From a virus, in IMG/VR virus record IMGVR_UViG_3300005523_000457, positions 1 through 41,085 of that record: a DNA stretch of 41,085 nt. One strand, 5' to 3'. Below, piece by piece: positions 1 through 21,502 of the stretch; position 1 is the first letter of the stretch; each line of letters starts with the position of its first letter. Below the pieces are notes generated by a model, which saw nothing but the letters and a program-made list of their open reading frames with translations, did not search any database and was not told the origin of the DNA. Made by a program: the position numbers and the translations under genes.

Positions 1-492
1 GAAATACATTCTACCTACGTCCCAATGTAGCTGTTGTCCATCAAGTATAAAATTAAACTGTGGAGGATTAACATTACGCAAAGGCATTATTAATCTAAAC
101 GTATCAATTTGTTCTCCTGAATAATCCCAGTCCCTGTGTGGTGGAAAAAATCCTCCTGGACCAAACTTTAAAAAATGTGTTCTATAATAATAGCCTTCCC
201 ATGGTTCTAATATTTCTTTAATTTGATCATTGAACACTGGAGTAGGAACATTGAAGTCTTTTTCACCCCATGTTGTACCATGCTCCTTGTTATATTCGTA
301 CAAGCTATCTAAATCAATACCATTAAAAGTTCCGTCTGAACTTGTAACACTTAATCCCCAACGATTAACATCTTTACGTGGATTGTATTTTTGCCATTCA
401 AAGGTATCGATCCAACTTATTAGCTTTTCAGCATCAGTTGTAACTTCTAATTCTACTTGATTGCCATACTGGCTTAAATCCCTATAATCCAT
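1..492 (-). CDS. 2OG-Fe(II) oxygenase-like protein, 3' end outside the window
   Basis: I read this gene by hand on the minus strand. ATG lies at 492-490 and the frame stays open for 164 codons to the left edge, so the C-terminus is missing. The N-terminus begins MDYRDLSQYG. Near residues 118-120 is an H-R-D triad (FFPPHRDWDYS), which fits the HxD iron-binding pair of 2-oxoglutarate/Fe(II) dioxygenases. It is followed by a beta-rich stretch (RLIMPLRNV, then LHWDVGRMYF) typical of the double-stranded beta helix, closest in feel to aspartyl/asparaginyl hydroxylase-like phage proteins. The distal histidine and arginine that would complete the site lie off the window. The start overlaps the end of the radical SAM gene by 11 bases, so it is the last visible gene of the operon starting at 4156. 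The family call is fairly secure; the substrate (peptide, sugar or nucleotide) is unknown. Confidence 0.7.
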   Translation of the reverse strand, partial: MDYRDLSQYGNQVELEVTTDAEKLISWIDTFEWQKYNPRKDVNRWGLSVTSSDGTFNGIDLDSLYEYNKEHGTTWGEKDFNVPTPVFNDQIKEILEPWEGYYYRTHFLKFGPGGFFPPHRDWDYSGEQIDTFRLIMPLRNVNPPQFNFILDGQQLHWDVGRMYF

Positions 493-1459
493 TACTATTA
501 CTTATCGTCCTTTCTTTTGGTATTTTACTATCTGCACTACTAACACAGGTTGGAGTTATGCACGGCATTGGTGCTTTAAACAGCTCAAATCCGTCGTCTA
601 ACGTGCCTAAAGGCTCATCATGGCAACTATATGCACGTTTTACTTCTCCACCTGGTTCTCGTATAATACAGCTTTGATAACCAGCCCAACAGTTCCAATC
701 TTTGAACTTGTTAAAGCCAAAAGCATTTAATCTTTCTGCTTGGTCAATCCAATATTCTACTCCATTAGCATCTTGTAACCGCATTTGTTTTTCATCTTGT
801 TGTGAGTCCTGCTGTAGTATATTTTTTTGCTCTTCGGTGTAGCCCGAGACGACAAAACTAGCAGTAGGATCAGACTGAGGCTTAAGAGTAACATGAAGAC
901 CCCTGCCAATAAACCTATTACATCTATCATAATATTCCTCCCAATGTTCAGGTACCATTACCTGATTAATAGTGACACCAACATCATTATCCTGTAAGAA
1001 TAATAATTTGTCACCGAATTCTTTTTCATTTGAAAACTCTGCATGATAACTTGCAGTAATTGTTCTTCTGTCCATAATGTGCGTTGCGTCGAGCCAGCGT
1101 TGCCACCAGCGTTTCGCAGGACTGCAATTACTTGTCAAGTGTATGCTTAAATATTTGCTTTCATAATCTTCATAATGTTTTACTAAATCTAAAAACTTTT
1201 TATATGCTGTAGGTTCACCACCACTAAAACTAAAATGAAATTTGTTAAAGCCATTTGCTCTAGCTTGACGTTTAATTTCATCTATTGTTCTAGTGTATAC
1301 CTCAAATGGTCTGTGGTCAACTTTACTGCTTCTAGCATATGGCCAACAATAGCTACAATTATAATTACAAAAACGTCCAAGGATCCAGCTTACGTTAAAG
1401 ACGCCTTTGTCTAACATATTCTTATGTCCTAGTTTTGTAATATCTTTAAATGGTATCAT
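482..1459 (-). CDS. Radical SAM protein with C-terminal SPASM-like cysteines
   Basis: A 325-residue radical SAM enzyme. The Cx3Cx2C cluster motif is at C31, C35 and C38 (FCNYNCSYCW), and the SAM-binding GGEP is at residues 80-83. Such enzymes bind a [4Fe-4S] cluster and cleave S-adenosylmethionine to a 5'-deoxyadenosyl radical. The C-terminal 60 residues carry further cysteines (NCWAGYQSC, YSCHDEPLG, PCITPTC), consistent with a SPASM/twitch auxiliary-cluster domain, as in enzymes that modify peptides or sugars. The start overlaps the preceding glycosyltransferase-like gene by 14 bases, and the end overlaps the oxygenase by 11 bases, so the genes are probably co-translated. The substrate cannot be read from the sequence. 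Pairing with an oxygenase suggests oxidative modification of a common target, which is inference. Confidence 0.88.
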   Translation of the reverse strand: MIPFKDITKLGHKNMLDKGVFNVSWILGRFCNYNCSYCWPYARSSKVDHRPFEVYTRTIDEIKRQARANGFNKFHFSFSGGEPTAYKKFLDLVKHYEDYESKYLSIHLTSNCSPAKRWWQRWLDATHIMDRRTITASYHAEFSNEKEFGDKLLFLQDNDVGVTINQVMVPEHWEEYYDRCNRFIGRGLHVTLKPQSDPTASFVVSGYTEEQKNILQQDSQQDEKQMRLQDANGVEYWIDQAERLNAFGFNKFKDWNCWAGYQSCIIREPGGEVKRAYSCHDEPLGTLDDGFELFKAPMPCITPTCVSSADSKIPKERTISNSNGL

Positions 1460-2129
1460 TACTTTCTTCTAAATGGAACCTTTCTTGTAGCCAATCAAAG
1501 TCGTTTATTAACCGAAGGTCAGACCCCCGAGAAAGGCCAAACTGCATACCAGCATTAGCACCTCGAATCGCAAAGTCACAAAAGTCTCCATGTGCTTCAG
1601 TAGTCCATATTTTAAGTCTTTCATTTGTTTCTCCTTCTTCTTGTCTATCAATTACTTTGCTACTTAATTTTGCACATTCTCTAAAAGCACTTTTCCAAGT
1701 GCTAAATTCATCTGTGTTAAATTTAGTAACATTACTCACGATTGGCATAGCCTTAAACCTATCACTTATACTGGTAGTCATATCAGTACTGCTAACGTCT
1801 ACGTTCATAGTGAGTCGTCGTGGTAGGAGTTTAACACCACCATAACCATAGACTAAATTGTTGATAGGATTTCGGCTACGCCAAACATGGACACAATCTA
1901 AATCATAATCACTTACTTTATGATCTAAATTGAATTCTGGTAATAAGTCAGCATCTCCATCAATAACCCAAAACATTTTTGTATAACATTTTTTCGCGGC
2001 TTTGATGTGTGCTTGGTGTATTCCTTTTACACCATGAACTCTTTTAGTATTAGGATAACGTTCTAGTAAACGTTTATATCTTTCATCTGCATCAGGTTCA
2101 TTATAACTTATAAAAACTGCATCATACAT
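1446..2129 (-). CDS. GT-A-like glycosyltransferase, short form
   Basis: A 227-residue protein with an N-terminal nucleotide-binding look (FISYNEPDADERY) and an acidic D57-G-D59-A-D61 motif after a beta strand (MFWVIDGDADLLP). This is the layout of a GT-A fold with a DxD metal and nucleotide-sugar site. It is a clear paralogue of the 293-residue protein at 9778-10659: both have SYxEPxxxExxY, KRVHGVxG and a V-DGD motif at the same spacing. It sits between the SGNH and radical SAM genes with overlaps of 8 and 14 bases. The family is often only annotated as hypothetical in phages, so glycosyl transfer is inferred from fold motifs. Donor and acceptor are unknown. Confidence 0.6.
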   Translation of the reverse strand: MYDAVFISYNEPDADERYKRLLERYPNTKRVHGVKGIHQAHIKAAKKCYTKMFWVIDGDADLLPEFNLDHKVSDYDLDCVHVWRSRNPINNLVYGYGGVKLLPRRLTMNVDVSSTDMTTSISDRFKAMPIVSNVTKFNTDEFSTWKSAFRECAKLSSKVIDRQEEGETNERLKIWTTEAHGDFCDFAIRGANAGMQFGLSRGSDLRLINDFDWLQERFHLEESNDTI

Positions 2130-3021
2130 AAGGTTCTAGCTCGTGTGCCAGTTGCTCCTGTAAAGTTCTATCTGGGTGACAGTTATCAGGAAACAACGGA
2201 CTTTCATTCATAATTTTAATTACTGCTTCGTAATCATCAACTATTCTCTTAAATTCATTGTCAGGGCCTTCTGGTATATCTGGAATACCTAGCTCTGGTT
2301 TTTGTCTTTGGAACAAACGTAAACTTTCCGATGCACTTTCAGTAAGATCGGGTCTACGTCTTCTAATATTATCTACAGTCTGCCAACTACTAAACATTGG
2401 TACAGGCCTTTTAATAATATTGGCCATCCAATCTTTGTGAATATGTTTTACAAATGTGTGATGTTCTTGTAATTCTACTTTTGTCCAGCCTTCTACTATT
2501 ACCCAAGGTATATTAGTTTCTTCATATATTTTTTGAGCACCGTCTAGTGCGTGTTGTAGTAATCCGTCATTTATTTCCTTAATTGTTTTTGCGTTTTGCA
2601 CAAGATTATTTGTTCCATGATAGTACTTGTCTAAATCATATAGTCCTGCTTCGTCTGATAATTGTTTTAAATCTCTGCAAGGTTCTGTTATCATCCAGAC
2701 AATACAATCAGGATTGTAAAATGTAGGACTTGTAAAACAAGGTGCTAGTCCTAGTGCTTCTTCTATTTTGTATAATGCTTGAAAGTTACCACAGCCTCCA
2801 AACGCATAGTTTACTGTTGCGTGTCCTTTTTGATCTAAGTAATAACCAAAGCCTGGCCAAACAACTTGAAAGGGTTTAGGATGTTCTGTTTCTAAATACT
2901 TGTCTTTGTTCCAAGGACGAAACACTTCTGGGTGATTAGGATTAGCACAGGCAGGACCTGGAACAATAGTTCCCCATTCTCCTAGTGCGTTGCTATCTCC
3001 TGCTATTAGTATTTTACTCAC
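2122..3021 (-). CDS. SGNH/GDSL-like hydrolase (copy 1)
   Basis: A 299-residue protein with recognisable SGNH-hydrolase blocks: G8-D9-S10-N (ILIAGDSNALGEW) as the nucleophile block, GGCGN at residues 75-79 as a glycine/asparagine block, and D279-N-C-H282 (FPDNCHPD) as the C-terminal DxxH catalytic pair. This family contains esterases and acyltransferases acting on sugars or lipids. Of the three SGNH-type proteins in this window it keeps the most canonical motifs. It overlaps the dehydrogenase upstream and the glycosyltransferase-like gene downstream by 8 bases each. An attractive but unproven role is adding or removing an acyl group on a sugar made by the neighbouring enzymes. Confidence 0.72.
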   Translation of the reverse strand: MSKILIAGDSNALGEWGTIVPGPACANPNHPEVFRPWNKDKYLETEHPKPFQVVWPGFGYYLDQKGHATVNYAFGGCGNFQALYKIEEALGLAPCFTSPTFYNPDCIVWMITEPCRDLKQLSDEAGLYDLDKYYHGTNNLVQNAKTIKEINDGLLQHALDGAQKIYEETNIPWVIVEGWTKVELQEHHTFVKHIHKDWMANIIKRPVPMFSSWQTVDNIRRRRPDLTESASESLRLFQRQKPELGIPDIPEGPDNEFKRIVDDYEAVIKIMNESPLFPDNCHPDRTLQEQLAHELEPYV

Positions 3022-4156
3022 AAATTATACCTTTGTCTTTTCTTGTGTTTCCGTAATAAACAACGTTAGATCCTTTATAACTTCTCCACGGATCAAACAC
3101 AGGCACACCGTTAGGTACTTTATCTCCTTCATGAACTAATACGTAAATGTGTGGATTTTCTTTTACAATATATCCACCATGTTCTTTTACATAATGTTGA
3201 ACTAATAAACTATAACTGCCGTCTACGTATTCAACACCTGGTTTGTAACTATCACTGCTGAACTGAATCTTATTGCCGTATTTTAATATTTCAATCGCCA
3301 TGTTTTCTGCTTGTTTTTCTCTTGCATTCATTACAGCATCAAATATATCATAACCCAAGCCAAGTTCCTTTGCCATGTAACGTAACGCAATATTATCACG
3401 TGGGTGACAAGCACCGCCATCGCCCATACCTGCTTTCATATATGCTTTGCTAATGATACGCATAGTTGACTTTGAAAGAGCTCTAGTAACTACATCAACA
3501 TTTATATTGCCTTGCTTTTGTGCAACGTCCTGCATCATGTTGACAAGACCAATCTTTGTACTAATAAATGTATTGTAGAATACCTTAATACATTCGCACT
3601 CGTCCCAGGTGCCTATTTCGTAACGTGGATTATTTTCCATTACACTTTGATAAAATTTTACAAGCTCTCTTGCATCTGTTGTAGCACTACCATCTTCCGT
3701 GCCAATCATAACCATCTCTGGATTGATCATATCCCATGCAACTGTACCCATAGCAATAAGATATGGGTTATAAACAAAACGTGTGTTTGTTACTAATGGT
3801 ACAAATTCTCTGCGTGTTGTACCAGGTAAAACTGTGCTAATAAGAACAAGCAACTGATCTTTTGTCATATACTTGTTTGCTTCTGTCAAACATTCTTTTA
3901 CAATTTTGTAGGAAAAATCTTTAGGTTCTAGATGTGCCGTAGGAGCCCTGCCATCATAAGCTGGGTCGTGTGGTGTTGGAACAGCAACAAACACAATGTC
4001 TTGACCTGCTACTGCTTCTGCTATAGTATCTTTTACTTGTATGTGATCGCTAGTTACGTCTACTATGTCGTAACCGCTTACTGTATGTCCTTTTTGTGCT
4101 ACTGCTTCTGCACAAGGTAAACCGAGTTTACCCAATCCGATAAAACTAATCTTCAC
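3014..4156 (-). CDS. UDP-glucose/GDP-mannose 6-dehydrogenase family protein
   Basis: A 380-residue NAD-dependent nucleotide-sugar dehydrogenase. The N-terminus has a Rossmann GxGxxG (FIGLGKLGLP, G7/G9/G12). The catalytic cysteine is near residue 250 in GDGGACHPRDN, matching the GGxCxPxD signature. A short C-terminal UDP-binding domain follows (residues about 305-375). Enzymes of this family oxidise the C6 hydroxyl of a nucleotide-linked hexose to a carboxylate in two NAD+ steps, giving an activated uronic acid for polysaccharide or glycan synthesis. UDP-glucose, UDP-HexNAc and GDP-mannose cannot be told apart here. The protein is somewhat short for the family. It is the first gene of the minus-strand operon after the divergent promoter region at 4157-4217. 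Confidence 0.88.
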   Translation of the reverse strand: MKISFIGLGKLGLPCAEAVAQKGHTVSGYDIVDVTSDHIQVKDTIAEAVAGQDIVFVAVPTPHDPAYDGRAPTAHLEPKDFSYKIVKECLTEANKYMTKDQLLVLISTVLPGTTRREFVPLVTNTRFVYNPYLIAMGTVAWDMINPEMVMIGTEDGSATTDARELVKFYQSVMENNPRYEIGTWDECECIKVFYNTFISTKIGLVNMMQDVAQKQGNINVDVVTRALSKSTMRIISKAYMKAGMGDGGACHPRDNIALRYMAKELGLGYDIFDAVMNAREKQAENMAIEILKYGNKIQFSSDSYKPGVEYVDGSYSLLVQHYVKEHGGYIVKENPHIYVLVHEGDKVPNGVPVFDPWRSYKGSNVVYYGNTRKDKGIICE

Positions 4157-4182
4157 ACTAATCTCCTACCATTAAATGCGTA

Positions 4183-4190
4183 TATAAATA
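4183..4190 (+). promoter_or_regulatory. Late-promoter-like motif, rightward (exact TATAAATA)
   Basis: The plus strand reads TATAAATA, an exact match to the T4 late promoter recognised by gp55-type sigma factors. It lies 27 bases before the ATG at 4218, leaving a leader of about 20 bases. With the leftward motif at 4197-4204 it makes a compact divergent late promoter. Confidence 0.65.
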
Positions 4191-4196
4191 TAGTAA

Positions 4197-4204
4197 TATT
4201 TATG
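4197..4204 (-). promoter_or_regulatory. Late-promoter-like motif, leftward
   Basis: The minus strand reads CATAAATA, one base from the T4 late consensus TATAAATA, 40 bases upstream of the dehydrogenase ATG. It lies in the only intergenic gap of a divergent gene pair, 6 bases from the rightward motif. Confidence 0.5.
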
Positions 4205-4217
4205 GAAAATTATTAAG

Positions 4218-5486
4218 ATGAAACGTATACGTGGCTTTCTAAAGTTCAACTCTTTTGTACAAGATCCGGAGTTTACCCAAACTACTGTAGAATTGGAAAG
4301 AGCATTTAGAACATATAACATAGAACATAGCGATATTACACTTATCACAGTTTTAATTGGCTATCCAAAATGGTATCCTGATAGTGATTTTTGGAACTAT
4401 GTTAAACGTAAAGTACAGAATCAAATGCGTGAAGATAAGAAATGTTTCTTTATTTTTGACGCTAGTACTGAAGGCTTCAGTACAATTTATGGCGAACCAT
4501 ATTTTGATATCTTATACAAGATGTCAAAAGACTACAACATTGATCCACGCAGGATATTTTTTACAAGCAGTAACATGAAAGACCATGATAACATAATGCG
4601 TTATAACATGGATAATAATATAAAAACAAGTATTAATATTTTTACATATCTAAACTTTGAACAAATGATATTTGGTACTGCTGGTCAAACTGAAGTTGAT
4701 CTTAATCAAAACGAAGACTTTGATACTGTTGTAGAAAGAAGAATACAAACGGCAGTAAGAAGAACAAAAAACAAATATCATCACCCGCAATTTAACAAGG
4801 TAGGATTAAGTTTAAGTAGAGTCAACAGACCACACAGAACTTTTAGTGCTATGGAAATATTCAACAGCGAACATTTTAAAGATATGTATGTTAGTCATGG
4901 TAGCTTAAAAGGTATGAACTTAGATTATTATCTTACGGAAATGCCTTTTCCAAACAGTGGTATTACTTATTCAGATTTAAAAACGTTTAAAAAACACTTG
5001 CCTTTGATTGTAGACACAGAAGATTTTAAAACTAATCATGCAACTGCACTACACAGCGATCTAAATGATCAAACTTTATTTCAAATAGTAAATGAAACTT
5101 TTGTAAATGATTGGCACGGTACTAGTTTGTTCTGGAGTGAAAAAACTTTTAGAAGTGTATATCATATGCAACCTTTTGTTATATGGGGACAGCCAGGTAT
5201 AAACAAACGCATGGTAGATTACGGATACAAATTATATGACGATTGGTTTGATTTAAGTTTTGATGATATTAACGATCCTGCTAAACGTTGGAAAGCATTA
5301 TGGAAAGAAGTTTGTAAACAAATAAAACACATTAGATCTTTGGATACTGTTAAACAGCAAATACGTTGGAAATTTAAAAATGAAACTGTATTAAGACATA
5401 ACTTTAGAACACTTTTAGAAGGTAAGTATACAAGAGAAACATTTAAAAATGTAGCATTAAAGATGAGAGAATTAGCAGATGAGTAA
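4218..5486 (+). CDS. Conserved phage protein, possible glycosyltransferase-like
   Basis: A 422-residue protein I do not recognise with certainty. The N-terminal half has Rossmann-like features (a beta-strand run at KKCFFIFDASTEGF, then RRIFFTSSN). The C-terminal half has a block resembling a motif I associate with phage and viral glycosyltransferase-like proteins: WSEKTFRSVYHMQPFVIWGQ, then PGINKRMVDYGY and a D-rich stretch (YDDWFDLSFDDIND), at residues about 305-355. In such families the S/T-EKT...PF...G-P-G...G-F block is part of the nucleotide-sugar site; the assignment here is inference. There is no signal peptide or membrane segment. The gene overlaps the following SGNH gene by 8 bases and is driven by the exact late motif upstream. 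No strong Shine-Dalgarno is seen before its ATG. Confidence 0.6.
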   Translation: MKRIRGFLKFNSFVQDPEFTQTTVELERAFRTYNIEHSDITLITVLIGYPKWYPDSDFWNYVKRKVQNQMREDKKCFFIFDASTEGFSTIYGEPYFDILYKMSKDYNIDPRRIFFTSSNMKDHDNIMRYNMDNNIKTSINIFTYLNFEQMIFGTAGQTEVDLNQNEDFDTVVERRIQTAVRRTKNKYHHPQFNKVGLSLSRVNRPHRTFSAMEIFNSEHFKDMYVSHGSLKGMNLDYYLTEMPFPNSGITYSDLKTFKKHLPLIVDTEDFKTNHATALHSDLNDQTLFQIVNETFVNDWHGTSLFWSEKTFRSVYHMQPFVIWGQPGINKRMVDYGYKLYDDWFDLSFDDINDPAKRWKALWKEVCKQIKHIRSLDTVKQQIRWKFKNETVLRHNFRTLLEGKYTRETFKNVALKMRELADE

Positions 5487-6357
5487 GAAAGTATTATATC
5501 ATAATCAACCTAAAAGATTGTTTACGTTTGGTTGTAGCTTCACTCACTATATGTGGGGTACTTGGGCTAATGCACTAGGACAAGAGCTAGATTGTGAGTT
5601 CGTAAACTTTGGCAGAAGTGGTGCTGGTAATCATTTTATATTCAATATGCTTATGCAGGCTGATGCTGTATACGACTTTACGCACGAAGATTTAATTATT
5701 GTACAATGGACTAACGTTTGTAGAGAAGATAGATATGTTCCGCAAGATCCAAATGGACCTTGGATGACTCCAGGTAACATTTACTCACAAAAACAATATA
5801 GAGAAGAATTTGTAAGAGATTACTTTAGTGAGTATGGTGCATACGTAAGAGATTTAGCATTTATAAAAGCAGGACACGAGATGTTAAAACATAAAACACA
5901 ATATCACTTTTTACAGATGTGCGATATATTAGATCAAACAGATCAGTGGACAGGTGCAAAACGTGATAAGAATCATAGACTAGATGATATGATGAAGTAT
6001 TACGGACCTAGTTTAAACGAATTACTACCTAGCTTTTATCAAACATTATTCAACAATAACATTGAAACAAAATTTAAAAGAGATAAGAAGTTAATAACAA
6101 AAAATTTCCAAGACGGACATCCTAGTCCTATGGAACACTATCTATTTCTAAAAGATACATTCAAACACGAATGGAAAGATAGCACAGATAGGGCAGTTGA
6201 AGAAGCACAAAACAAATGGATTAAATTATTAAAAGATGCTAGTGAGCTTTCAAAAGACTTTCATTTGTTTAAAATGAAACAACGTTGGTTGGATATGTTT
6301 TATTATGAAACTAATATTAAACCTGACGATAAGCCAGATCCTATAATACACTTTTAA
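5479..6357 (+). CDS. SGNH/GDSL-like hydrolase (copy 2, Cys replaces Asp in block I)
   Basis: A 292-residue protein. Block I is G18-C19-S20-F-T (FTFGCSFTHYM), a variant of GDS common in phage SGNH proteins that keeps the serine nucleophile. A second block reads GRSGAGN at residues 45-51, and D212-G-H214 (QDGHPSPMEH) supplies the C-terminal Asp/His. The first 60 residues have the alternating strand/helix look of the flavodoxin-like SGNH fold. Likely an esterase or acyltransferase, but the substrate is unknown. It is translationally coupled to the 422-residue gene (8-base overlap), and its stop codon runs 17 bases into the 3' end of the oppositely oriented radical SAM gene. Confidence 0.68.
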   Translation: MSKKVLYHNQPKRLFTFGCSFTHYMWGTWANALGQELDCEFVNFGRSGAGNHFIFNMLMQADAVYDFTHEDLIIVQWTNVCREDRYVPQDPNGPWMTPGNIYSQKQYREEFVRDYFSEYGAYVRDLAFIKAGHEMLKHKTQYHFLQMCDILDQTDQWTGAKRDKNHRLDDMMKYYGPSLNELLPSFYQTLFNNNIETKFKRDKKLITKNFQDGHPSPMEHYLFLKDTFKHEWKDSTDRAVEEAQNKWIKLLKDASELSKDFHLFKMKQRWLDMFYYETNIKPDDKPDPIIHF

Positions 6358-7510
6358 GTTCAGGAAAAGTTTCCACAAAATTTTGATTTCTAATTATATC
6401 GTAGTGTTGCGTTTTTGCCTTGAACTGCATTAATGCACTTTCATCAAACTTACTGTTTTTAATGTAACGTACAACACCTTCTAGTTGCCACTTGTATTTG
6501 CCTGGATTATTGGACATATATTTTTGTATCTTATCTAACGCAATAGTTTTATATTCTTGTGGTAATGCGTTTACACTATAATAATGTGGATCAACTATAT
6601 TGTACATACTTGCATTGTTAGGATCTACATCTTGTATTTCATCTAAAAAGTCTGTAAGTGTGCATAAATTAAAAATACTTACTACTGTATTGAAACTAAT
6701 TTTTACGTGTGGTGCTTGTTCACGTATTACTTTCAAGTTAGTTGTAATTGTATTCCAATCAGTTCCTGCCCTAATGTATTCTGCTCTTGGACCGTAGCTA
6801 TCTAAACTAGCACTTACTTGCACATCTTCAAACTTGTTCCATAAGTCTATAATACTTTTGTTTTTATATTTTAACTTACTAACGTTTGAATTGTATTCTA
6901 ATCTTACTTTTGTGTTGCCTGTTTCAACCAAGTGTTCTAGTATGTCATAATGTTTGTCAGTCATTAAAGGTTCGCCACCTGCAAAGTAAAATACTTTTAT
7001 GTTTTTGAAGTGTGGCTTAAACTGTTCATACAAACTATCGTTGCTGTCCCCTCCTGCAAAAATATATACAGGTTTATTTGCACCTTGTTTATTATCTTCT
7101 ACAGCCCAATTACTGCTGTATGTTGAACTACAAGTTCTACATTTAAAATTACAAATATTACTCCAACGTACATCAAAGTAACGTAAATTCATTTCATCTA
7201 AACTGCCGTCTTCGTTGGTTGCTTTAATTAAAGGCAGTTCTTCCTTAAAACGTTTATTGTTACTAATACGTGAACTAGTATTACCTGCTTCTTCATGTTT
7301 CCAGCATTGATTACATATACTAGGCTTTTCACCTTTTAATAATTGCTTTCTTAATGTTTTGTATTCATGACTGTTCCATATATCTTCTATGCTACGGTTA
7401 TGTGTGTTTCCTAAAGGCTGTTTGTAATCTCCTATACAACAAGGCAAAACGTTTCCGTCTGCATTGACGTACATATGAATCCAAGGTAATATACAAATTG
7501 TTTTGCTCAT
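6341..7510 (-). CDS. Radical SAM protein with N-terminal SPASM/twitch-like domain (copy 2)
   Basis: A 389-residue radical SAM enzyme. The cluster motif is C120-x3-C124-x2-C127 (ICNFKCRTCS) and GGEP is at residues 178-181. Unusually, the SPASM-like part comes first: residues 1-75 read like a SPASM domain (CILPWIHMYVNADG, then PCCIGD, a LGN..SIEDIW segment, and a late CNQCW pair), with C6, C24, C25, C66 and C69 as possible auxiliary-cluster ligands. Most SPASM proteins carry this domain at the C-terminus. NCBI uses the name 'twitch domain-containing radical SAM protein' for related phage proteins (from memory). The start codon shares bases with the stop of the SGNH gene upstream (TAATG), implying coupled translation. 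The substrate is unknown. Confidence 0.87.
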   Translation of the reverse strand: MSKTICILPWIHMYVNADGNVLPCCIGDYKQPLGNTHNRSIEDIWNSHEYKTLRKQLLKGEKPSICNQCWKHEEAGNTSSRISNNKRFKEELPLIKATNEDGSLDEMNLRYFDVRWSNICNFKCRTCSSTYSSNWAVEDNKQGANKPVYIFAGGDSNDSLYEQFKPHFKNIKVFYFAGGEPLMTDKHYDILEHLVETGNTKVRLEYNSNVSKLKYKNKSIIDLWNKFEDVQVSASLDSYGPRAEYIRAGTDWNTITTNLKVIREQAPHVKISFNTVVSIFNLCTLTDFLDEIQDVDPNNASMYNIVDPHYYSVNALPQEYKTIALDKIQKYMSNNPGKYKWQLEGVVRYIKNSKFDESALMQFKAKTQHYDIIRNQNFVETFPELKSVL

Positions 7511-8421
7511 TATTTTGCCATTAAGTTATATACATTAAAGCCCCAAGCCTTATGTGCCGCCGCTTCTGGGTGTGGACTATGGTCCTGACACTCTTGTAAA
7601 AAATTATTTGATGCTTCAATCTTATCTAATTGCTTATTGAAATATTTATTTTCTTGTATTACAGGATAATCATTTGTAAAATTCTTTAGCCAAGCTGTAA
7701 CATAAAAATCAGGACTTTGTATTTTGTAGCCATTTATTCTAGCACTAAACTCTATCCATGTTTCGTTAATGATAGTAAATCCCCAATAGTTTTCATTCTG
7801 TTGTGTACAAAAGTTTTTCCAAGCAGTAGTTTTTACGTTATCAAACTTTGCAATGGTATCGTTTAATTGTGTGTAAAAAATGTGTTCGTTTTGGACACAC
7901 CAATCTTTCACAGTAAGATTCTTTACATAGTCTTTATCATATAATTTAGACAGTCCGTGTTTGCCTAGTTCATTTACAACAATATCTTCTCTACTTGGTT
8001 CTGTCATTTGCACTAACAAATATATCTTATCATACAACGGACTTAAATGTTCAAGTATTCTTTGTACGTTACCAAAAATATAAAAGTTATTATTACCAGG
8101 AATTGCATATTGATAATAGTCAGTATCTAATAATGTAGCAACCTGTGTACCCCAACAATGTCTTATCTGTACATCTAGATCCCAAAGTTTTAATGCTGAT
8201 TGTACACGTTTCTCAAGACTTTCACCATATGTCCAGCTTTCACCTAATACCACTGTGCATTCTTTTCTGCCACGTTTTACCCAGAACTCTGTATTCTTAA
8301 CGTATTGATTTATGTGTGGTGGCTTTTTATTATCGTCAGTAACTAGAACCTTTACTAGATCCTTAAACAATCTATCTTTTTGATATTCGTGTGGCTTATA
8401 ATTATAGTACTTTGCAGTCAT
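7510..8421 (-). CDS. SGNH-like protein (copy 3, divergent)
   Basis: A 303-residue protein with a diverged SGNH layout. Block I is G60-E61-S62-W-T (VVLGESWTYGESL), preceded by a 55-residue extension. AIPGNNN is a plausible block II/III. A histidine-rich C-terminus contains D280, H281, H284 and H290 (QDHSPHPEAAAH), from which a catalytic Asp-His pair could come. The overall plan (GxSxT near the start, xPGNNN, D..PHP...H near the end) resembles the 292-residue SGNH protein at 5479-6357 with little sequence identity. It sits between two radical SAM genes, overlapping the upstream one by 20 bases and the downstream one by one base. It might have a binding role rather than catalysis; the family call is moderate. 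Confidence 0.55.
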   Translation of the reverse strand: MTAKYYNYKPHEYQKDRLFKDLVKVLVTDDNKKPPHINQYVKNTEFWVKRGRKECTVVLGESWTYGESLEKRVQSALKLWDLDVQIRHCWGTQVATLLDTDYYQYAIPGNNNFYIFGNVQRILEHLSPLYDKIYLLVQMTEPSREDIVVNELGKHGLSKLYDKDYVKNLTVKDWCVQNEHIFYTQLNDTIAKFDNVKTTAWKNFCTQQNENYWGFTIINETWIEFSARINGYKIQSPDFYVTAWLKNFTNDYPVIQENKYFNKQLDKIEASNNFLQECQDHSPHPEAAAHKAWGFNVYNLMAK

Positions 8422-9778
8422 TATAAAATTCTTCCATTTCGGGAAAAGTTTTTACTAGACTGCAATCTCTACGTTTATCAAACTCTGTAAACCAACGAGC
8501 AAAATCTCTACGACCTTGTTCTAATTTTGCAGGCTCTATATTTGTTGTACGCATATAATCAACTACACGTCTAAACTTTTCTACTTCTAAACTACTAAAC
8601 TTGGTTCTGTCAGCATCATCTTGATAGTCGTGCATATATTGTAAGTGCTTTTCCATATAAGGCATAAACTTTTCTTTAGGCAATATGTTCATATCATATA
8701 TAATTGGCTCTTTCAAATGCGGAGTATCAAATCTAATACGTTGCCATTGTGTTGCATTATCATTGCTATTATATTTGTGTCGCCATTCTAGTATTTTTTC
8801 TAATAATAAATTAAAACTAGTTACACCAAATATATTAAATGTAATCATAAACGTTACAGGCCAACCTGTGTTACTTAGATAGTGATCCAAGTTTTGTTCC
8901 CATAACTTTATATCTAATCCTGTACGTGCATATTCGGCTCTAGGTCCCCAAGTGTCAATGCTTGTATAAAGTTTAAAACTTTTAATACAATTTTTTTCTT
9001 TTAATCTTAATACTGTTTCTGTTAGCTTTTCAACTAGCTTGGGCTTAACACCCATGTTGCTGTTTACTTCTATTTGTATGTGTGGCTTTGGATCTGCTTC
9101 TAGTTTGTCAAATAGTTCCCATAGGCTTTTGTGCATTAAGGGTTCGCCACCTGTTATACGCAAAATGTTTAGTGTCTTACTTACTTCGGGCCACCATTCC
9201 CAAAATGCGTCTACGTATGGATTCTCTTCTTCCTTTTTATAAATCTTAAACCAATCAATGTCCTGCCTATGTGAAGTAGACATACTGTATGGTCCGTGTT
9301 GTTTTATCTCATTATAGTATCTGCTAGATGCTTTAGGGTGACAGTAACCGCACTTAAAATTACATTCATTACTAAAACTTATTTCAATGTACTCTGGATT
9401 TACATTAAAATCCGCCCCTTTTTGTTTTATTTCCGCTAATCTTTCTTCATTGTAAATGCTTGTTGTTTTGATATGCCTATCACTTACATAGTCTTTACCC
9501 ATGGCTTCAATCTTCCAACAATAGCTACAACCATCTGGTTTTTCACCGCATAACATTTTCTTACGTTGGTCTTTCTTTTCTTTGGTGTTATGTAATGCAC
9601 TTGGATTATCTTTTAGTTCGTCCAAAGGTATAGGGTGCGGAGCAGGGTGATAACAACTATGCGTTTCACCTGTTGCAAGATATATTGTTGTATGATGCCA
9701 TTTAGCCAAGCAGAAAGTAGGAGATGTTTGCTCCTCGATAGTGGGCATTAATTTTTTAATTTTTTCTAGTTCGCTCAT
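8402..9778 (-). CDS. Radical SAM protein with N-terminal SPASM/twitch-like domain (copy 3)
   Basis: A 458-residue radical SAM enzyme, the largest of three here. The cluster motif is C139-x3-C143-x2-C146 (ECNFKCGYCH) and GGEP is at residues 210-213. As in the 389-residue paralogue, a cysteine-bearing domain precedes the core: C23, C42, C84 and C87 in FCLAKWHH, THSCYHPAP and GCSYCWKIEAMG. The insertions around the core differ from the 389-residue copy, so the two are old duplicates or separate acquisitions and probably have different substrates. Start and preceding stop share bases (TAATG), with an AGG-type ribosome binding site about 6 bases upstream. Confidence 0.87.
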   Translation of the reverse strand: MSELEKIKKLMPTIEEQTSPTFCLAKWHHTTIYLATGETHSCYHPAPHPIPLDELKDNPSALHNTKEKKDQRKKMLCGEKPDGCSYCWKIEAMGKDYVSDRHIKTTSIYNEERLAEIKQKGADFNVNPEYIEISFSNECNFKCGYCHPKASSRYYNEIKQHGPYSMSTSHRQDIDWFKIYKKEEENPYVDAFWEWWPEVSKTLNILRITGGEPLMHKSLWELFDKLEADPKPHIQIEVNSNMGVKPKLVEKLTETVLRLKEKNCIKSFKLYTSIDTWGPRAEYARTGLDIKLWEQNLDHYLSNTGWPVTFMITFNIFGVTSFNLLLEKILEWRHKYNSNDNATQWQRIRFDTPHLKEPIIYDMNILPKEKFMPYMEKHLQYMHDYQDDADRTKFSSLEVEKFRRVVDYMRTTNIEPAKLEQGRRDFARWFTEFDKRRDCSLVKTFPEMEEFYNDCKVL

Positions 9779-10659
9779 TACCTGCCTAAGACTCTATCAC
9801 TGTTTACATAAACAGTTTTAAAGAATTTACTTTGTTCCTCATCTAATGCAACCTTGCTTATCGGCAGTCCTTGCTCTTGTAATACTTCACCATACTCTGC
9901 AATCATTTGATCTACAGGATAGTCTTTGATCTCGTTCCAATATTCATTAAGCCATTTAAAATCTCTTGTTACAGAATGATCCCAATCAGTTGCTAGTATC
10001 TTTTGGCAACCATCTCTAGCACCCATGATAGCATATAGTCCGTTGTCTACATCTGCACCAACGTTCATCCATATAAGCAGTCTATGATAATTTTGCCACC
10101 AAGTGTTGTTTGCAAGGTCTTGTACCTTTGCTCCTCTATTCAATGACATCTTAACACCTTCTCTGAATCCTGCTCTCCAAGCCTGATGTGGTGTTGAACT
10201 AATAATACTGGTTGAAAAGTTTTCATTTAGTTGGTAGTAGTTGTCAAAGTAACAAAATTCTATCTGTGTATCGTCCGACCCATCTGTGTTTTCGTGTGTT
10301 TTCATATTAGCAACAAAATCTTTTGTCCACATCTTTAAACTTCCGTTGCCGTATTTCAAACCATTGATGTCAATGTTACCGCACCAACTAAACTGATAGT
10401 CGTCATCTACACCTAATTCATCTAGATCTAATACTACGTTTAAAAAGTTTGGATCAATAATAGTATCACCATCTACTGTAACAAAGTGTTTTGTGTCTGA
10501 TAATTCTGCACAGGCTTTGTGTGCCGCATCAGAACCGTGTACTCCGTGTACACGTTTTGCCCATGGACACTTAGATACTAAATCAACATAGTTCTTTTCA
10601 CAGTTAGGTTCATCATAACTTAAAAATATAATGTCTTGCTCTGCAATATTAATTTTCAT
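9778..10659 (-). CDS. GT-A-like glycosyltransferase, long form
   Basis: A 293-residue protein paralogous to the 227-residue one at 1446-2129. The shared motifs are FLSYDEPNCEKNY, KRVHGVHG, and an acidic D63-G-D65 (FVTVDGDTIIDP) that would be the DxD metal site of a GT-A fold. Compared with the short form it has about 70 extra residues, mainly C-terminal (residues 225-293). It overlaps the GIY-YIG-like gene by 11 bases and is coupled to the radical SAM gene by a TAATG junction. This repeats the association of this family with a radical SAM gene seen at the left end of the window. Donor and acceptor are unknown. Confidence 0.6.
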   Translation of the reverse strand: MKINIAEQDIIFLSYDEPNCEKNYVDLVSKCPWAKRVHGVHGSDAAHKACAELSDTKHFVTVDGDTIIDPNFLNVVLDLDELGVDDDYQFSWCGNIDINGLKYGNGSLKMWTKDFVANMKTHENTDGSDDTQIEFCYFDNYYQLNENFSTSIISSTPHQAWRAGFREGVKMSLNRGAKVQDLANNTWWQNYHRLLIWMNVGADVDNGLYAIMGARDGCQKILATDWDHSVTRDFKWLNEYWNEIKDYPVDQMIAEYGEVLQEQGLPISKVALDEEQSKFFKTVYVNSDRVLGR

Positions 10660-11290
10660 TCTTTAACCTTAATTCTACTCTACGTAGATCACTATCTGGA
10701 TTACATACAGGAATACGACCATAGTATCTATAATAGTTAATTAGCATTTGCATTTCAGTTTCTTTTACAAGACTGTTGTGCATTGGCAAGTATGCTTCAT
10801 ACACGTTATCAATATATTCCTTACCTATCTTTTCCTTAAATGCAGTACCACAACCATATGGTGATAACCTATCGTTACGTACTGTGCCTTTAAAATCTGT
10901 GCGTCTACCTAGCATACAGTTTCTAGTTGTTGCTCTGCTTTCGCCTATGTATATTACACCTGGTTGTAAAATGTCTGCTACAGCAGGTGGCTTACCTTTG
11001 AACATTCCATACATATAACAGCCGGCATCTTTCTTATCAAATCCCCAACTAGGATCATACTTTTCATCAATGTGATGCCATTCTGTAAATTTATCCAACC
11101 CAGGTGCTTGTAGTGAATAACTTTGTGTAGTAAGATAATCCTTACCACCATGCTCTAATACTTTTTTAATTGTATAAGCAAAGTCTTCTAAGTTATCTAT
11201 CTTGTCAAAGATCTTTACAAGTTGTTCTTGTTTAAGACCGTGACCACCTGAACCTTTTACAATGTTCTCTGCTAAAATTTTTGACTTCAT
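10649..11290 (-). CDS. GIY-YIG nuclease-like protein
   Basis: A 213-residue protein. Residues 90-116 contain a tyrosine-rich strand (GCYMYGMF) followed by GVIYIGES, which fits the two halves of a GIY-YIG motif with a 20-residue spacer. An arginine pair at R129-R130 (LGRRTDF), glutamates at E177/E179 (LVKETEMQM) and an asparagine at N197 (IPVCNP) occupy the expected positions of the catalytic Arg, metal-binding Glu and final Asn. The first 85 residues are unassigned. GIY-YIG enzymes cut DNA and include homing endonucleases, but here the gene is embedded in an operon with a 4-base overlap upstream and an 11-base overlap downstream, unlike a typical free-standing homing gene. The call rests on motif spacing only. 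Confidence 0.5.
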   Translation of the reverse strand: MKSKILAENIVKGSGGHGLKQEQLVKIFDKIDNLEDFAYTIKKVLEHGGKDYLTTQSYSLQAPGLDKFTEWHHIDEKYDPSWGFDKKDAGCYMYGMFKGKPPAVADILQPGVIYIGESRATTRNCMLGRRTDFKGTVRNDRLSPYGCGTAFKEKIGKEYIDNVYEAYLPMHNSLVKETEMQMLINYYRYYGRIPVCNPDSDLRRVELRLKNEN

Positions 11291-11874
11291 TCTATAACCT
11301 CATATTTGTAACTGTCAAACTTCTTTATAGTATACACTGAAATCGGTTCGTTGTCAAACTCAAAAGCATCACTAAACGGTAAAACGATATATTTTCCACC
11401 AATTAGTTTGTCAAACGTAAATTGTAGTGTTTTATAAAGAATATTTGGATCGTCCTTTTTGGTTATACTAAACGATAAATGTCCATTTGTCAAGCTAATC
11501 TTTTGTGCTAGAATATTCATTTCTAGATCTCCGCCTATTGTAATTTTCCAACAGGTATCTTTTACATTTTTTGTTACTGTTATGTCTGTGTTATCACCTG
11601 TTGTTGGCAGTTCATAAATTAAGTCATCAACATAATAACTGTCTATGTCATGATTGCTACGTTGTCTTAGTTCATACGTGTTAGATCTTTTTATGTAATG
11701 TACATAATAGAAGTGCATACTTTCACTACCTTCTAGTATGCCTTTTATTTCACTATCTGAAACAGGAATAAAACTACCTTCAGTAGGTTTTTTATTAGGC
11801 AAGGATAACAGCTCACCTGTTGTAGGATCAAATACTGCAAAACGTTCGTTGTCTACTGTAATACCTAGCTTCAT
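11287..11874 (-). CDS. Conserved hypothetical protein, beta-rich
   Basis: A 195-residue protein I do not recognise. It opens with a regular strand pattern (MKLGITVDNERFAVFDPTTG) and continues as alternating short beta strands and turns to the end. It has no cysteine pairs beyond a single cysteine, no signal peptide, no membrane segment and no catalytic-looking motif. The all-beta character suggests a binding or structural role. It is coupled by 4-base overlaps to rpiB upstream and the GIY-YIG-like gene downstream, so it is expressed with the sugar genes. Confidence 0.6.
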   Translation of the reverse strand: MKLGITVDNERFAVFDPTTGELLSLPNKKPTEGSFIPVSDSEIKGILEGSESMHFYYVHYIKRSNTYELRQRSNHDIDSYYVDDLIYELPTTGDNTDITVTKNVKDTCWKITIGGDLEMNILAQKISLTNGHLSFSITKKDDPNILYKTLQFTFDKLIGGKYIVLPFSDAFEFDNEPISVYTIKKFDSYKYEVIE

Positions 11875-12335
11875 AATTTTCCTAACTTCTTAACCCTTCG
11901 TGCGTGTCTACCACCTTCAAAGTATGTTGTAAAAAATGCTTTTACAATTTTCTTTGCTTGGCTTGTTGTTGTAAAGTCTGCACCTAAACATAATACGTTT
12001 GCGTTGTTGTGTCTACGAGCCATCTCTGCTTCTTTAGGTGTTCTACAAACTACTGCTCTCATATTTTTAAATCTATTGGCCGCAATACTAACTCCATAGC
12101 CTGATCCACAAACTAGTATACCATAATTATCTTTATCAAAATGATATCCCATTTCTTTTACTACGTCTGGATAATCAACTGATGTACCTGCTTCGTATGG
12201 TTTTAAATTCTGTATTACTGCTATGTCAAATAATGTTACACCATTTATATCATCTGGTGAAACATAATCTAGTAATTTGTCTTTTAGTTCTAATCCTCTG
12301 TGATCAGAACCTACTATAAGGTCAATTGGTTTCAT
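11871..12335 (-). CDS. rpiB: Ribose-5-phosphate isomerase B (RpiB/LacAB family)
   Basis: A 154-residue protein with clear RpiB signatures: VGSDHRGLELK at residues 8-18 (D11, H12), the active-site loop VCGSGYGVSIAANR with C76 as the likely catalytic base, HNNANVLCLGA with H109 as a phosphate or ring-opening residue, and the family ending GGRHARRVKK. RpiB interconverts ribose-5-phosphate and ribulose-5-phosphate, and relatives act on allose or galactose 6-phosphates. In a virus it would be an auxiliary metabolic gene feeding pentose phosphate or nucleotide supply. Its place between glycosyltransferase genes, with 4-base overlaps on both sides, instead allows a role in making an activated sugar. 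Length is normal for the family, with an atypical stretch at residues 26-50. Confidence 0.93.
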   Translation of the reverse strand: MKPIDLIVGSDHRGLELKDKLLDYVSPDDINGVTLFDIAVIQNLKPYEAGTSVDYPDVVKEMGYHFDKDNYGILVCGSGYGVSIAANRFKNMRAVVCRTPKEAEMARRHNNANVLCLGADFTTTSQAKKIVKAFFTTYFEGGRHARRVKKLGKL

Positions 12336-13180
12336 ATTCCTAAATACTTTTCATACTTGTTAATTTTTTCATCAGTTAAGAACTCTTTTTCTGTATAATG
12401 AAAGATACCTGACTGCAAATGATTACCTATCTTTAGTGTTAAGTCTTCTGTAAGATAAGAACCTACTCTGCTACGCCATGTTGCACTTCCATTTCTCCAA
12501 CCTTGTATGTGTGGCTTCATATGTGTAAACGTAGGAAACTTAACACGACTATTTGTAATCCTATCTTCACAATCTAATATTTTTGTAACGATAGCTGTGC
12601 TTGTATCAACACTTAAAAACTTTTGATACTGCTCCTTTGCATACTTGCCGTAAAACATTTGCCAGTTATTCATTACTATTTCTAATAATGTGTAAAACTC
12701 TTTTGCAAAATCACACTTCTTAAAATAATGAAAGCCTGCATATACGTTTGGCAAGTTATTTGCCTTATACGTTTTTCTATAATAGTTGTCTACTACCTTT
12801 TCACCTCTGTATGTGTATACATTTGAGGTATAAAACACTTCATAGTTTTCTAAAAACTTCCACCACGTGTCTATATTTTGTAATACTAACATATCTGTAT
12901 CCAACACAATAGTTTCATCATAAGGACTTGCATGGTATAACTTCCAACGGTTGTCTACCTTCCAATCATTATCCTTTGCATCGTCGGACCAAGGTATGGG
13001 TTTAATAACATCAAACAATTTTTCATACCTAGATGGCACTTTATCGTTGGTTATTAAACAAATCTTTGCTTCATTAGTAGCTTTAATACTCATAGCTAAC
13101 GTACACGCCTGTTGTACGTAATCGTATTCGCTGTTTTGTGCTATTAATACAAATCCTTTACTAGGCACTTTTGCTCCCAA
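12332..13180 (-). CDS. Glycosyltransferase, GT-A fold, family 8-like
   Basis: A 282-residue protein with an N-terminal Rossmann-like half (GFVLIAQNSEYDYVQQA) and a metal-binding D94-T-D96 motif after a strand (DETIVLDTDMLVLQN), which is typical of family 8-like retaining glycosyltransferases. A conserved YAGFHYFKK segment follows, as in that family. No membrane helix is present, so it should act in the host cytoplasm on a soluble or growing glycan. It is a distant paralogue of the 286-residue protein at 13349-14209: both have the PYDETI-LD(S/T)D block and a similar N-terminus. It overlaps rpiB by 4 bases and the small gene upstream by 20. Confidence 0.75.
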   Translation of the reverse strand: MGAKVPSKGFVLIAQNSEYDYVQQACTLAMSIKATNEAKICLITNDKVPSRYEKLFDVIKPIPWSDDAKDNDWKVDNRWKLYHASPYDETIVLDTDMLVLQNIDTWWKFLENYEVFYTSNVYTYRGEKVVDNYYRKTYKANNLPNVYAGFHYFKKCDFAKEFYTLLEIVMNNWQMFYGKYAKEQYQKFLSVDTSTAIVTKILDCEDRITNSRVKFPTFTHMKPHIQGWRNGSATWRSRVGSYLTEDLTLKIGNHLQSGIFHYTEKEFLTDEKINKYEKYLGI

Positions 13181-13349
13181 CTGGTTTACACACGTATTCT
13201 ATTGTGTCCCACTTACCATCTGGTGGTATTTCTTTATATAATTCAAGCATTAGGTTACACTCTTGTTTATTTTCAAACCACTGTATGTCTTGTACCAAGC
13301 AATTACCTTTTAAACAAACTGTAAGTAATATATGCCAAACAAATTCCAT
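13161..13349 (-). CDS. Small conserved hypothetical protein (62 aa)
   Basis: A 62-residue protein. The first 17 residues are hydrophobic (EFVWHILLTVCLKGNC), followed by a polar tail with four cysteines in all (C12, C17, C31, C53). It fits exactly between two real genes: its ATG is coupled to the stop of the 286-residue glycosyltransferase (TAATG), and its end overlaps the next start by 20 bases, which argues for a real gene. The cysteines could form disulphides if the tail is exported, or bind a metal. The N-terminus is too short for a confident signal peptide call. Confidence 0.65.
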   Translation of the reverse strand: MEFVWHILLTVCLKGNCLVQDIQWFENKQECNLMLELYKEIPPDGKWDTIEYVCKPVGSKSA

Positions 13350-14209
13350 TAAACTATTCCTCTATCTATAATTCTGTTAAGGCTAAACTTGTTCATTACA
13401 TGAATGTTACTGCCTTTGATTCGTAATGGTGTGTATTCTCCTAAATGATTTTCTTTTTCAAGCAGGAACAAGAAATTATCCTGTTCTAGTTCCCATAAGA
13501 TATCTCTATCTGCTGTGTAATATTTTGTACCTGGCAACTTATGTGCAAAGTCACCTTCTGTGTAACCATTCATTATATGTATTGCTACACTAAACACATG
13601 GTCGTTACGGAAAGTACCTCTGTTTACTTGGAATATGCTATTATAGTGGTCCCAGTTTTCTTGTATGTGCTTTGTTAGGTCAAAGAATATCTTGTTTACT
13701 TCTGACTTTCTAAAGAATATTACTGTAGCCCAATAAAAGTCTATGCTTGTATCACTAATCTTTTCAAACTCAGCAGTATCTCTCCAAGCAGTTAAGTCCT
13801 TTGCGTTCTTAAAAATTAAAAAATCATGATCTTGTTCAAAGCAATTTTTAAATAAACTGTTTGCAATGATATAATCACTATCTAATAATATTGTTTCGTC
13901 ATATGGTGTTAGTTCATATGACTGTGTACGCAGGTCATTCTTAAATTGTAAGTGTTTTGCTACACCCGATCCATCAAAATATCTTTTAGTAGTCGAATTG
14001 TTTGTGAAAGGGACTTCAATAACTTTATCAAAAACTGTTTCATAGTCTTTATATGTTTCCTTAAGGTAATCTACACTATCCGTAACTATACTAGTAGGAA
14101 TATCTAAATATTTTCTTATTCTTTTAGCTGAATAATGAGCTTGTTTTATGTAATCAATCTGTGCGTTATTACGAGCAAAGATTAATGCACCTTTAGTTTT
14201 CTGTGTCAT
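13349..14209 (-). CDS. GT-A-like glycosyltransferase (paralogue of the 282-residue protein)
   Basis: A 286-residue protein with the same plan as the 12332-13180 product: an N-terminal strand (GALIFARNNAQIDYIKQA), then TPYDETILLDSDYIIA carrying D110-S-D112 as the DxD site, and a later WATVIFFRKSE block where the sister has YAGFHYFKK. Likely a nucleotide-sugar-dependent transferase in the cytoplasm. Divergence between the two copies suggests different donor or acceptor specificity. It overlaps the 119-residue gene upstream by 17 bases. Confidence 0.65.
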   Translation of the reverse strand: MTQKTKGALIFARNNAQIDYIKQAHYSAKRIRKYLDIPTSIVTDSVDYLKETYKDYETVFDKVIEVPFTNNSTTKRYFDGSGVAKHLQFKNDLRTQSYELTPYDETILLDSDYIIANSLFKNCFEQDHDFLIFKNAKDLTAWRDTAEFEKISDTSIDFYWATVIFFRKSEVNKIFFDLTKHIQENWDHYNSIFQVNRGTFRNDHVFSVAIHIMNGYTEGDFAHKLPGTKYYTADRDILWELEQDNFLFLLEKENHLGEYTPLRIKGSNIHVMNKFSLNRIIDRGIV

Positions 14210-14552
14210 AGTCTACTAATCCCGAAACCTTGCGTTTAGCTCTTAACTTTTGATATTCTGTTTCGTATTCGTTAGTAGATGTAAAGTAAACGTCGCTTAT
14301 GTTTTCGTAGAATTCATGAAGTTGTTCTATTCTAATTGGAGTGTCATTATCGTCTACGATAACAACGTTTGAGTCATCGTTATCACACAGAATTTTTACA
14401 AAAGTCAATAGTTCTTGTGTTACAGAAAACTGCCCACCATTAAAATAGTAGATTCTGCTTTCAAGAAACTTCTCTTTCAACACTCTTTTTTGGTTATTAA
14501 GAGTAACCATGTAGTTAGAAAAGTCTAAGGCTTTTTTTAATCTTTCATCCAT
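14193..14552 (-). CDS. Conserved hypothetical protein (119 aa)
   Basis: A 119-residue, charged, mostly helical protein with a beta segment in the middle (SNVVIVDDNDTPIRI). There is no signal peptide and no recognisable catalytic motif. Similar small proteins occur beside fibre genes in marine T4-like phages (from memory). It is the first gene of the 14552-6341 operon, directly downstream of a late-type promoter motif. Its end overlaps the next gene by 17 bases. Confidence 0.65.
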   Translation of the reverse strand: MDERLKKALDFSNYMVTLNNQKRVLKEKFLESRIYYFNGGQFSVTQELLTFVKILCDNDDSNVVIVDDNDTPIRIEQLHEFYENISDVYFTSTNEYETEYQKLRAKRKVSGLVDYDTEN

Positions 14553-16982: not shown

Positions 16983-17003
16983 TGTTATAAACCCCTATAA
17001 TGT

Positions 17004-17011
17004 TATTTATC
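17004..17011 (-). promoter_or_regulatory. Late-promoter-like motif before the 495-residue fibre gene
   Basis: The minus strand reads GATAAATA, one base from TATAAATA, 22 bases upstream of the ATG at 16982, inside the 31-base gap after the 605-residue gene. Confidence 0.5.
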
Positions 17012-17013
17012 TT

Positions 17014-20855: not shown

Positions 20856-20858
20856 TTA

Positions 20859-21491: not shown

Positions 21492-21502
21492 TATTTATTT
21501 AG
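21492..21502 (-). promoter_or_regulatory. Tandem late-promoter-like motifs overlapping the giant gene's stop
   Basis: The minus strand reads CTAAATAAATA, that is CTAAATA and (A)ATAAATA in overlap, covering the last codon and the stop of the giant gene. The inner motif ends 19 bases before the ATG at 21473. It would let the connector and fibre genes be transcribed apart from the 14.7-kb gene. Confidence 0.5.

Follow-up and report, generated by a model that had tools for sequence, protein, structure and literature searches.

A glycosyltransferase–radical SAM gene block conserved behind the baseplate genes of marine jumbo phages, with a possible role in virion glycosylation

Why would a phage keep a battery of radical S-adenosylmethionine (SAM) enzymes beside its baseplate and fibre genes? 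The IMG/VR virus record IMGVR_UViG_3300005523_000457, a 41 kb stretch (41,085 nucleotides) referred to here as the window, carries a cluster of radical SAM, glycosyltransferase and SGNH hydrolase-like genes. An earlier note on this DNA had read them as a repeated three-gene unit that may build or graft an unusual sugar. We found that the core of the cluster, a row of glycosyltransferase genes followed by a radical SAM gene, keeps a nearly invariant order behind virion structural genes in related viruses. Tentatively, and at slightly less than an even chance, we read the module as a late, soluble, cytoplasmic glycosylation system with radical SAM tailoring that acts on the phage's own baseplate and fibre proteins. 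The open reading frames (ORFs) of the three radical SAM genes, the three genes with SGNH motifs and the homologous GT-A pair were all confirmed, and neighbours in the cluster overlap by 1-20 nt. Genes lie on the minus strand unless the plus strand is indicated.

All three radical SAM proteins keep the CX3CX2C motif and belong to PF04055, and on these sequence features their assignment is certain. rSAM1 (482..1459; PF04055, 4e-14) lies downstream of GT1 and ends in a SPASM-like Cys cluster. rSAM2 (6341..7510; NF033640, 1.6e-119, plus SPASM) is a twitch/SPASM enzyme, and rSAM3 (8402..9778; NF033640, 7.8e-96) is a twitch enzyme encoded directly downstream of GT2. The curated cut-off of NF033640 (twitch domain-containing radical SAM) is 170 bits over the full length; rSAM2 and rSAM3, with 399.6 and 321.6 bits, are full-length members well above it, whereas rSAM1, a shorter enzyme without the N-terminal twitch, scores 31.2 bits and falls outside the family. 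The family name says nothing of the substrate, and we infer the chemistry of these enzymes from family alone. The anti-phage protein viperin (prokaryotic) was rejected as an identity, since its match is limited to the generic core of radical SAM enzymes (40.5 bits against a cut-off of 180), and the other listed defence genes were rejected because their matches are likewise generic. Each of nine large contigs carries 3-11 matches to the NF033640 model. The radical SAM proteins split into 22 clusters at 40% identity, and GT1 and GT2 form one cluster each at 45%. Among annotated phages, only Vibrio phages K566 and K567 matched rSAM3. K566 (L270, 161-168 kb) has four or more NF033640-like radical SAM genes in a row but lacks the glycosyltransferase family.

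The glycosyltransferases are of three kinds. GT1 (1446..2129), a short GT-A-type enzyme of an unnamed family with DGD at residues 57-59, and GT2 (9778..10659), a core gene of the block, are homologous with about 31% identity. The DxD aspartates, D63 and D65 in GT2 numbering, are invariant in 36 sequences. Neither protein has a Pfam or PHROG match, and GT1 also lacks an NCBIfam match. The predicted GT2 structure (predicted local distance difference test score, pLDDT, 88.9) matched GT-A enzymes in Foldseek with probabilities of 0.9-1.0 and template modelling (TM) scores of only about 0.3-0.4, indicating a family remote from the solved glycosyltransferase families. On this model we are confident of a GT-A fold for GT2 and, by homology, for GT1. 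X422 (4218..5486, plus strand; 422 amino acids, C-terminal SEKTFR motif) is a predicted two-domain GT-B-fold glycosyltransferase, its model (pLDDT 90.3) matching trehalose-6-phosphate synthase, GtfA and FucT (probability 0.97-1.00, TM about 0.3-0.4). GTa (12332..13180), also in the core, and its paralogue GTb (13349..14209) appear to be GT8/glycogenin-like; glycogenins were the only PDB matches to their profile (E 0.001), and Pfam gave none. PDB sequence searches with the GT, X422 and SGNH1 profiles returned nothing useful. The two further glycosyltransferases of the earlier note can thus be placed tentatively near GT8, and its list has to be corrected by X422, the gene it left unnamed between the two groups. 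The structure-based search that it recommended yielded GT-A and GT-B folds, and these together with the GT8-like assignments support its proposal of glycan chemistry.

Are these genes together by chance? We fetched IMG/VR relatives with GT2, SGNH3 and rSAM1 as queries and counted adjacencies in clusters dereplicated at 90% identity. GT2 has a radical SAM gene after it in 18 of 19 clusters, as has GT1 in 17 of 18; likewise, 17 of 18 clusters have an SGNH gene before GT1. Judged from gene order, the pairing of glycosyltransferase and radical SAM genes is not a chance arrangement. The system had been proposed from a single sequence, with absence of co-occurrence in relatives as its refutation; we ran this test and found co-occurrence instead. 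To avoid anchor bias, a second set of loci was anchored on the structural protein p296. All 56 of these loci with at least 6 kb downstream (not dereplicated) carry glycosyltransferase and radical SAM genes, and in nearly all of them the order is p296-p119-GTb-GTa-p195-GT2-radical SAM. The exceptions are L318 and L351, where X422 or UGD directly follows GT2. Beyond the fixed block, one to four radical SAM genes, X422, SGNH and UGD genes appear in varying order. A tblastn search with GT1 and GT2 found no match in the annotated phage collection (HTVC008M included). With the GT profile, no match was obtained in PA5oct, Phosso, 2.275.O, K566 or AG-345-E15, and the same profile matched six of six related IMG/VR contigs.

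The block has a fixed place. p296 (14600..15490) is a virion structural protein by homology to PA5oct EST35_0123, which is noted as detected by electrospray ionization tandem mass spectrometry (ESI-MS/MS). It is accompanied by fibre/baseplate proteins of 495, 605, 675 (gp10-like) and 204 amino acids (15495..21473) and by a giant protein of 4906 amino acids in a single ORF (21495..36215), all of them candidate acceptors. In PA5oct, the genes run from a giant protein through a 201-amino-acid protein, the gp10-like protein and a 478-amino-acid protein to the p296 homologue, where the operon stops. The counterparts of p296, the gp10-like protein and their neighbours are annotated there as ESI-MS/MS-detected, as is EST35_0128 (11.6 kb), which corresponds to the giant protein by position only. 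The block in the window starts where this syntenic operon ends, indicating that it was added exactly behind the virion gene set. The largest related contig encodes a capsid protein that shares 66-71% identity with its counterparts in Phosso, Vibrio phage 2.275.O, PA5oct and GAP32, and the baseplate wedge protein of the window itself has similar best matches. By the relative's capsid protein, the source phage is a marine jumbo myovirus; a pelagimyophage identity was provisionally rejected because this protein groups with jumbo phages. No DNA-level match to cultivated close relatives was found.

Late expression had also been proposed, and conserved promoter motifs support it. Each strand of the divergent gap between UGD and X422 (4157..4217) holds a late promoter motif of T4 type, TATAAATA at 4183 on the plus strand and CATAAATA at 4204 on the minus strand. 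The exact TATAAATA occurs once in the window, at 4183. Of the five NATAAATA sites on the minus strand, four lie between genes and on the coding strand (binomial P about 3e-8, in a test devised after the sites had been seen). In 17 of 20 distinct relatives, the late motif is present on both strands of this gap.

We also investigated the SGNH proteins, which have three motifs in common: GDS/GCS/GES, one of the GxGN/PGNN type, and a C-terminal HP. SGNH1 (2122..3021) has GDS at 8-10, GCGN at 76-79 and DNCHP at 279, residues that are invariant in 15 sequences, and SGNH2 (5479..6357, plus strand) has GCS, GAGN and DGHP. SGNH3 (7510..8421), recognized by motif only, is optional and occurs in 23 loci. 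The tentative assignment is based on these motifs plus a weak match of the SGNH2 profile to GDSL lipases in the PDB (best E 0.005). Around block III, the SGNH1 and SGNH2 profiles align with each other (E 2.7e-6, Prob 88), and the Asn of this block is replaced by Pro in some SGNH2 relatives. SGNH1-type and SGNH2-type proteins swap at the position before GT1, which suggests a functional link.

Relatives of the pairing exist in bacteria. Members of the GT family lie beside rSAM1-like and NF033640 radical SAM genes in metagenome-assembled genomes (MAGs) of Bdellovibrionia, with GT2-GT1 tandems in L181, L182 and L263. The loci L182, L183, L188 and L255 resemble those of the phages in having GT paralogues beside both kinds of radical SAM gene, but differ in having ordinary bacterial flanks and no link to virion genes. 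All 10 of the 144 Bdellovibrionota genomes with the GT are among the 41 with NF033640 (P = 1.5e-6, ancestry uncorrected). In the GT tree, phage GT1 groups with Streptomyces and the B copies of Bdellovibrionia, and phage GT2 with the A copies. The support of this split, 91/89, does not reach the starred level. GT1 and GT2 thus probably separated before the phage lineage formed. This tree led us to reject a recent duplication of one unit. Neither supposed unit is a copy of the other: the paralogy of GT1 and GT2 is old, their settings differ, and SGNH families replace each other at the GT1 position, so the idea of a repeated three-gene unit is not upheld. More distant GT homologues lie next to GT4-type enzymes in Photorhabdus and Streptomyces. 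In one Bdellovibrionia genome (G011, contig C1, 745-775 kb; L253-L254), at least 12 NF033640 radical SAM genes form an array within about 30 kb of one chromosome. Nine contigs in bacterial or archaeal MAG bins (L175-L179, L184, L185, L187 and L201) are probably of phage origin, as they contain the fibre/GT block of the phages; L175, L185 and L201 had been binned as a Neomarinimicrobiota MAG.

Other genes surround this core. UGD (3014..4156; phrog_9148, 4e-92), a nucleotide-sugar dehydrogenase of the UDP-glucose type, is conserved among relatives. A 2-oxoglutarate (2OG) oxygenase gene truncated by the window end (1..492) is an optional partner of rSAM1, with homologues in 59 loci; a full-length homologue (L006:20195-20812) is Asp/Asn beta-hydroxylase-like (PF05118, 25.7 bits against a cut-off of 22.6). 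The small block proteins are p119 (14193..14552), which is conserved, and p195 (11287..11874), a possible acceptor or partner that usually lies directly upstream of GT2 and evolves fast beside this slowly evolving neighbour. p213 (10649..11290), by eye a possible GIY-YIG nuclease, is found in 19 loci only and is an insertion rather than a core gene. The RpiB-family isomerase (11871..12335), which the earlier note had counted into the system, is an isolated passenger absent from all fetched IMG/VR relatives; both RpiB and the sporadic p213 were rejected as components. In a close relative, a KDO-8-phosphate synthase (L006:6086-6859; TIGR01362, above cut-off) lies between GTb and GTa, and other relatives have sugar aminotransferase or nucleotidyltransferase homologues in the island. 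The island of close relatives also holds HemE-like (L006:7854-8795, below cut-off) and HemC (L088:6063-6902, above cut-off) genes, possibly haem-related auxiliary genes, and that of a related phage contig an alternative oxidase (L044:13404-14009; PF01786, 2e-79). The haem-type genes are sporadic passengers. No tRNA genes were found in the window, and Rfam and tandem-repeat scans of it gave nothing relevant.

What might such a module do? In the glycosylation system that we propose, GTb and GTa would prime a virion protein, and GT2, GT1 and X422 would extend the glycan with uronic acid supplied through UGD. The paired radical SAM enzymes could alter either the newly attached sugar or the residue that accepts it, for instance by epimerisation, oxidation or decarboxylation, and the SGNH proteins could add or remove ester groups. 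The product may be the acylated or radically altered sugar suggested before, with a virion protein as the modified molecule. A core shared by these phages would come from the fixed GTb-GTa-p195-GT2-radical SAM part, and differences in the outer glycan between phages from the variable genes that follow it. Glycosylation directed at the virion is supported by the adjacency of GT with radical SAM and of SGNH with GT1, the GT-A, GT-B and GT8 assignments, the ESI-MS/MS-detected counterparts in PA5oct and the co-occurrence in Bdellovibrionota. A simple hydropathy scan predicted no transmembrane segment in the window proteins, and in about 160 loci of relatives only one ORF of more than 110 amino acids with at least two such segments. 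The membrane components that mark a lipopolysaccharide (LPS)/O-antigen or capsule cluster are thus absent from the window and, in effect, from the flanks of relatives, which leaves flippase, polymerase, ligase and lipid-linked initiating transferase out of view. A soluble pathway acting on the virion is favoured because of this, the late-type motifs and the synteny lock behind same-strand baseplate/fibre genes.

Several points weigh against this reading. The strongest is that the KDO-8-phosphate synthase and sugar-nucleotide genes in the island of relatives fit envelope glycans at least as well, which keeps an envelope explanation clearly alive. The PF05118 family of the 2OG homologue also includes the lipid A hydroxylase LpxO. 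The glycosyltransferases resemble solved structures only remotely (TM about 0.3-0.4), the phage could borrow host membrane machinery, and the conserved position may mark merely a shared late operon or integration site. Alternatively, the module might modify the host envelope, the main competing reading, which we regard as unlikely but serious: LPS or capsule sugars would be altered late, for instance to keep rival phages out or to prevent progeny from attaching to debris, with the phage supplying sugar precursors and transferases to the membrane machinery of the host. UGD is conserved, and homologous Bdellovibrionia loci contain other glycosyltransferases, with a carbamoyltransferase beside such radical SAM genes elsewhere in one genome. 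Such a function has already been proposed for pelagimyophage islands with GT8-type glycosyltransferases, where radical SAM cassettes were noted (PMC7029224). However, the module has no predicted membrane component, and neither its fixed linkage to virion genes nor late-type promoters are expected for a factor acting on the surface of an already infected cell.

SPASM and twitch enzymes often act on peptides. In a pathway resembling that of ribosomally synthesized and post-translationally modified peptides, the radical SAM enzymes, and the glycosyltransferases likewise, would act on side chains of a phage protein such as p195 or a fibre. The fast evolution of p195 beside GT2 and the resemblance of the 2OG homologue to protein Asp/Asn hydroxylases agree with this, but peptide-maturase matches lie far below cut-off, a result that is weak either way as short precursor genes were not searched systematically, and we consider peptide modification improbable. 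Auxiliary metabolism, the synthesis of a small molecule with no bearing on virion or envelope, or DNA hypermodification can also be imagined. The GT4-type neighbourhoods in Photorhabdus and Streptomyces and the HemC, HemE-like and alternative oxidase genes agree with such a reading, and phage glycosyltransferases can act on DNA, but the core order fixed behind virion genes, the late-type promoters, the sporadic occurrence of the haem-type genes and the lack of recognised base-synthesis genes in the window make this reading highly improbable.

How does the proposed virion glycosylation module compare with known systems? The individual families, and radical SAM cassettes beside tail fibres, are already known. 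The host recognition cluster of pelagimyophages, defined as the island between VrlC and gp14 of SAR11 T4-like phages, is large and variable, lies beside tail fibres and contains GT8-type glycosyltransferases, UDP-glucose dehydrogenase and radical SAM cassettes (PMC7029224). In contrast, the present phage is related to GAP32, PA5oct and Phosso by capsid protein and has a fixed GT-radical SAM block. Mycobacteriophages carry glycans on structural proteins, with phage glycosyltransferases as presumed modifiers, and are mentioned without a set of radical SAM, SGNH and UDP-sugar dehydrogenase genes (PMC12619734), whereas glycans on the virion are a prediction for the present phage. The best fold match of GT2 is the PBCV-1 capsid glycosyltransferase (PDB 2p6w, E 1.6e-4), a GT-A enzyme of viral origin whose target is a virion protein, although at 12% identity and TM 0.31-0.40 this is a fold-level likeness only. 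In the open-licence literature we found no jumbo phage paper with radical SAM and glycosyltransferase, nor a description of the fixed GT-radical SAM pairing, the unnamed GT family, the baseplate-operon lock or the Bdellovibrionia counterpart.

Marine phages have frequently been reported to carry radical SAM genes, which have no established role there. Our results link a large set of these genes to a single location after the baseplate operon and to a single partner, an unnamed GT-A family, turning them into concrete, testable enzyme pairs. It is conceivable, if rather doubtful as a whole, that marine jumbo phages of a widespread lineage attach glycans to their baseplates and fibres by an undescribed chemistry, in which dedicated radical SAM enzymes each partner a specific glycosyltransferase and which shares its origin with glycan loci of Bdellovibrionia. 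The enzymes of the module may represent new carbohydrate-active radical chemistry, and, if the glycans are on the virion, the adsorption of abundant uncultured jumbo phages could be influenced.

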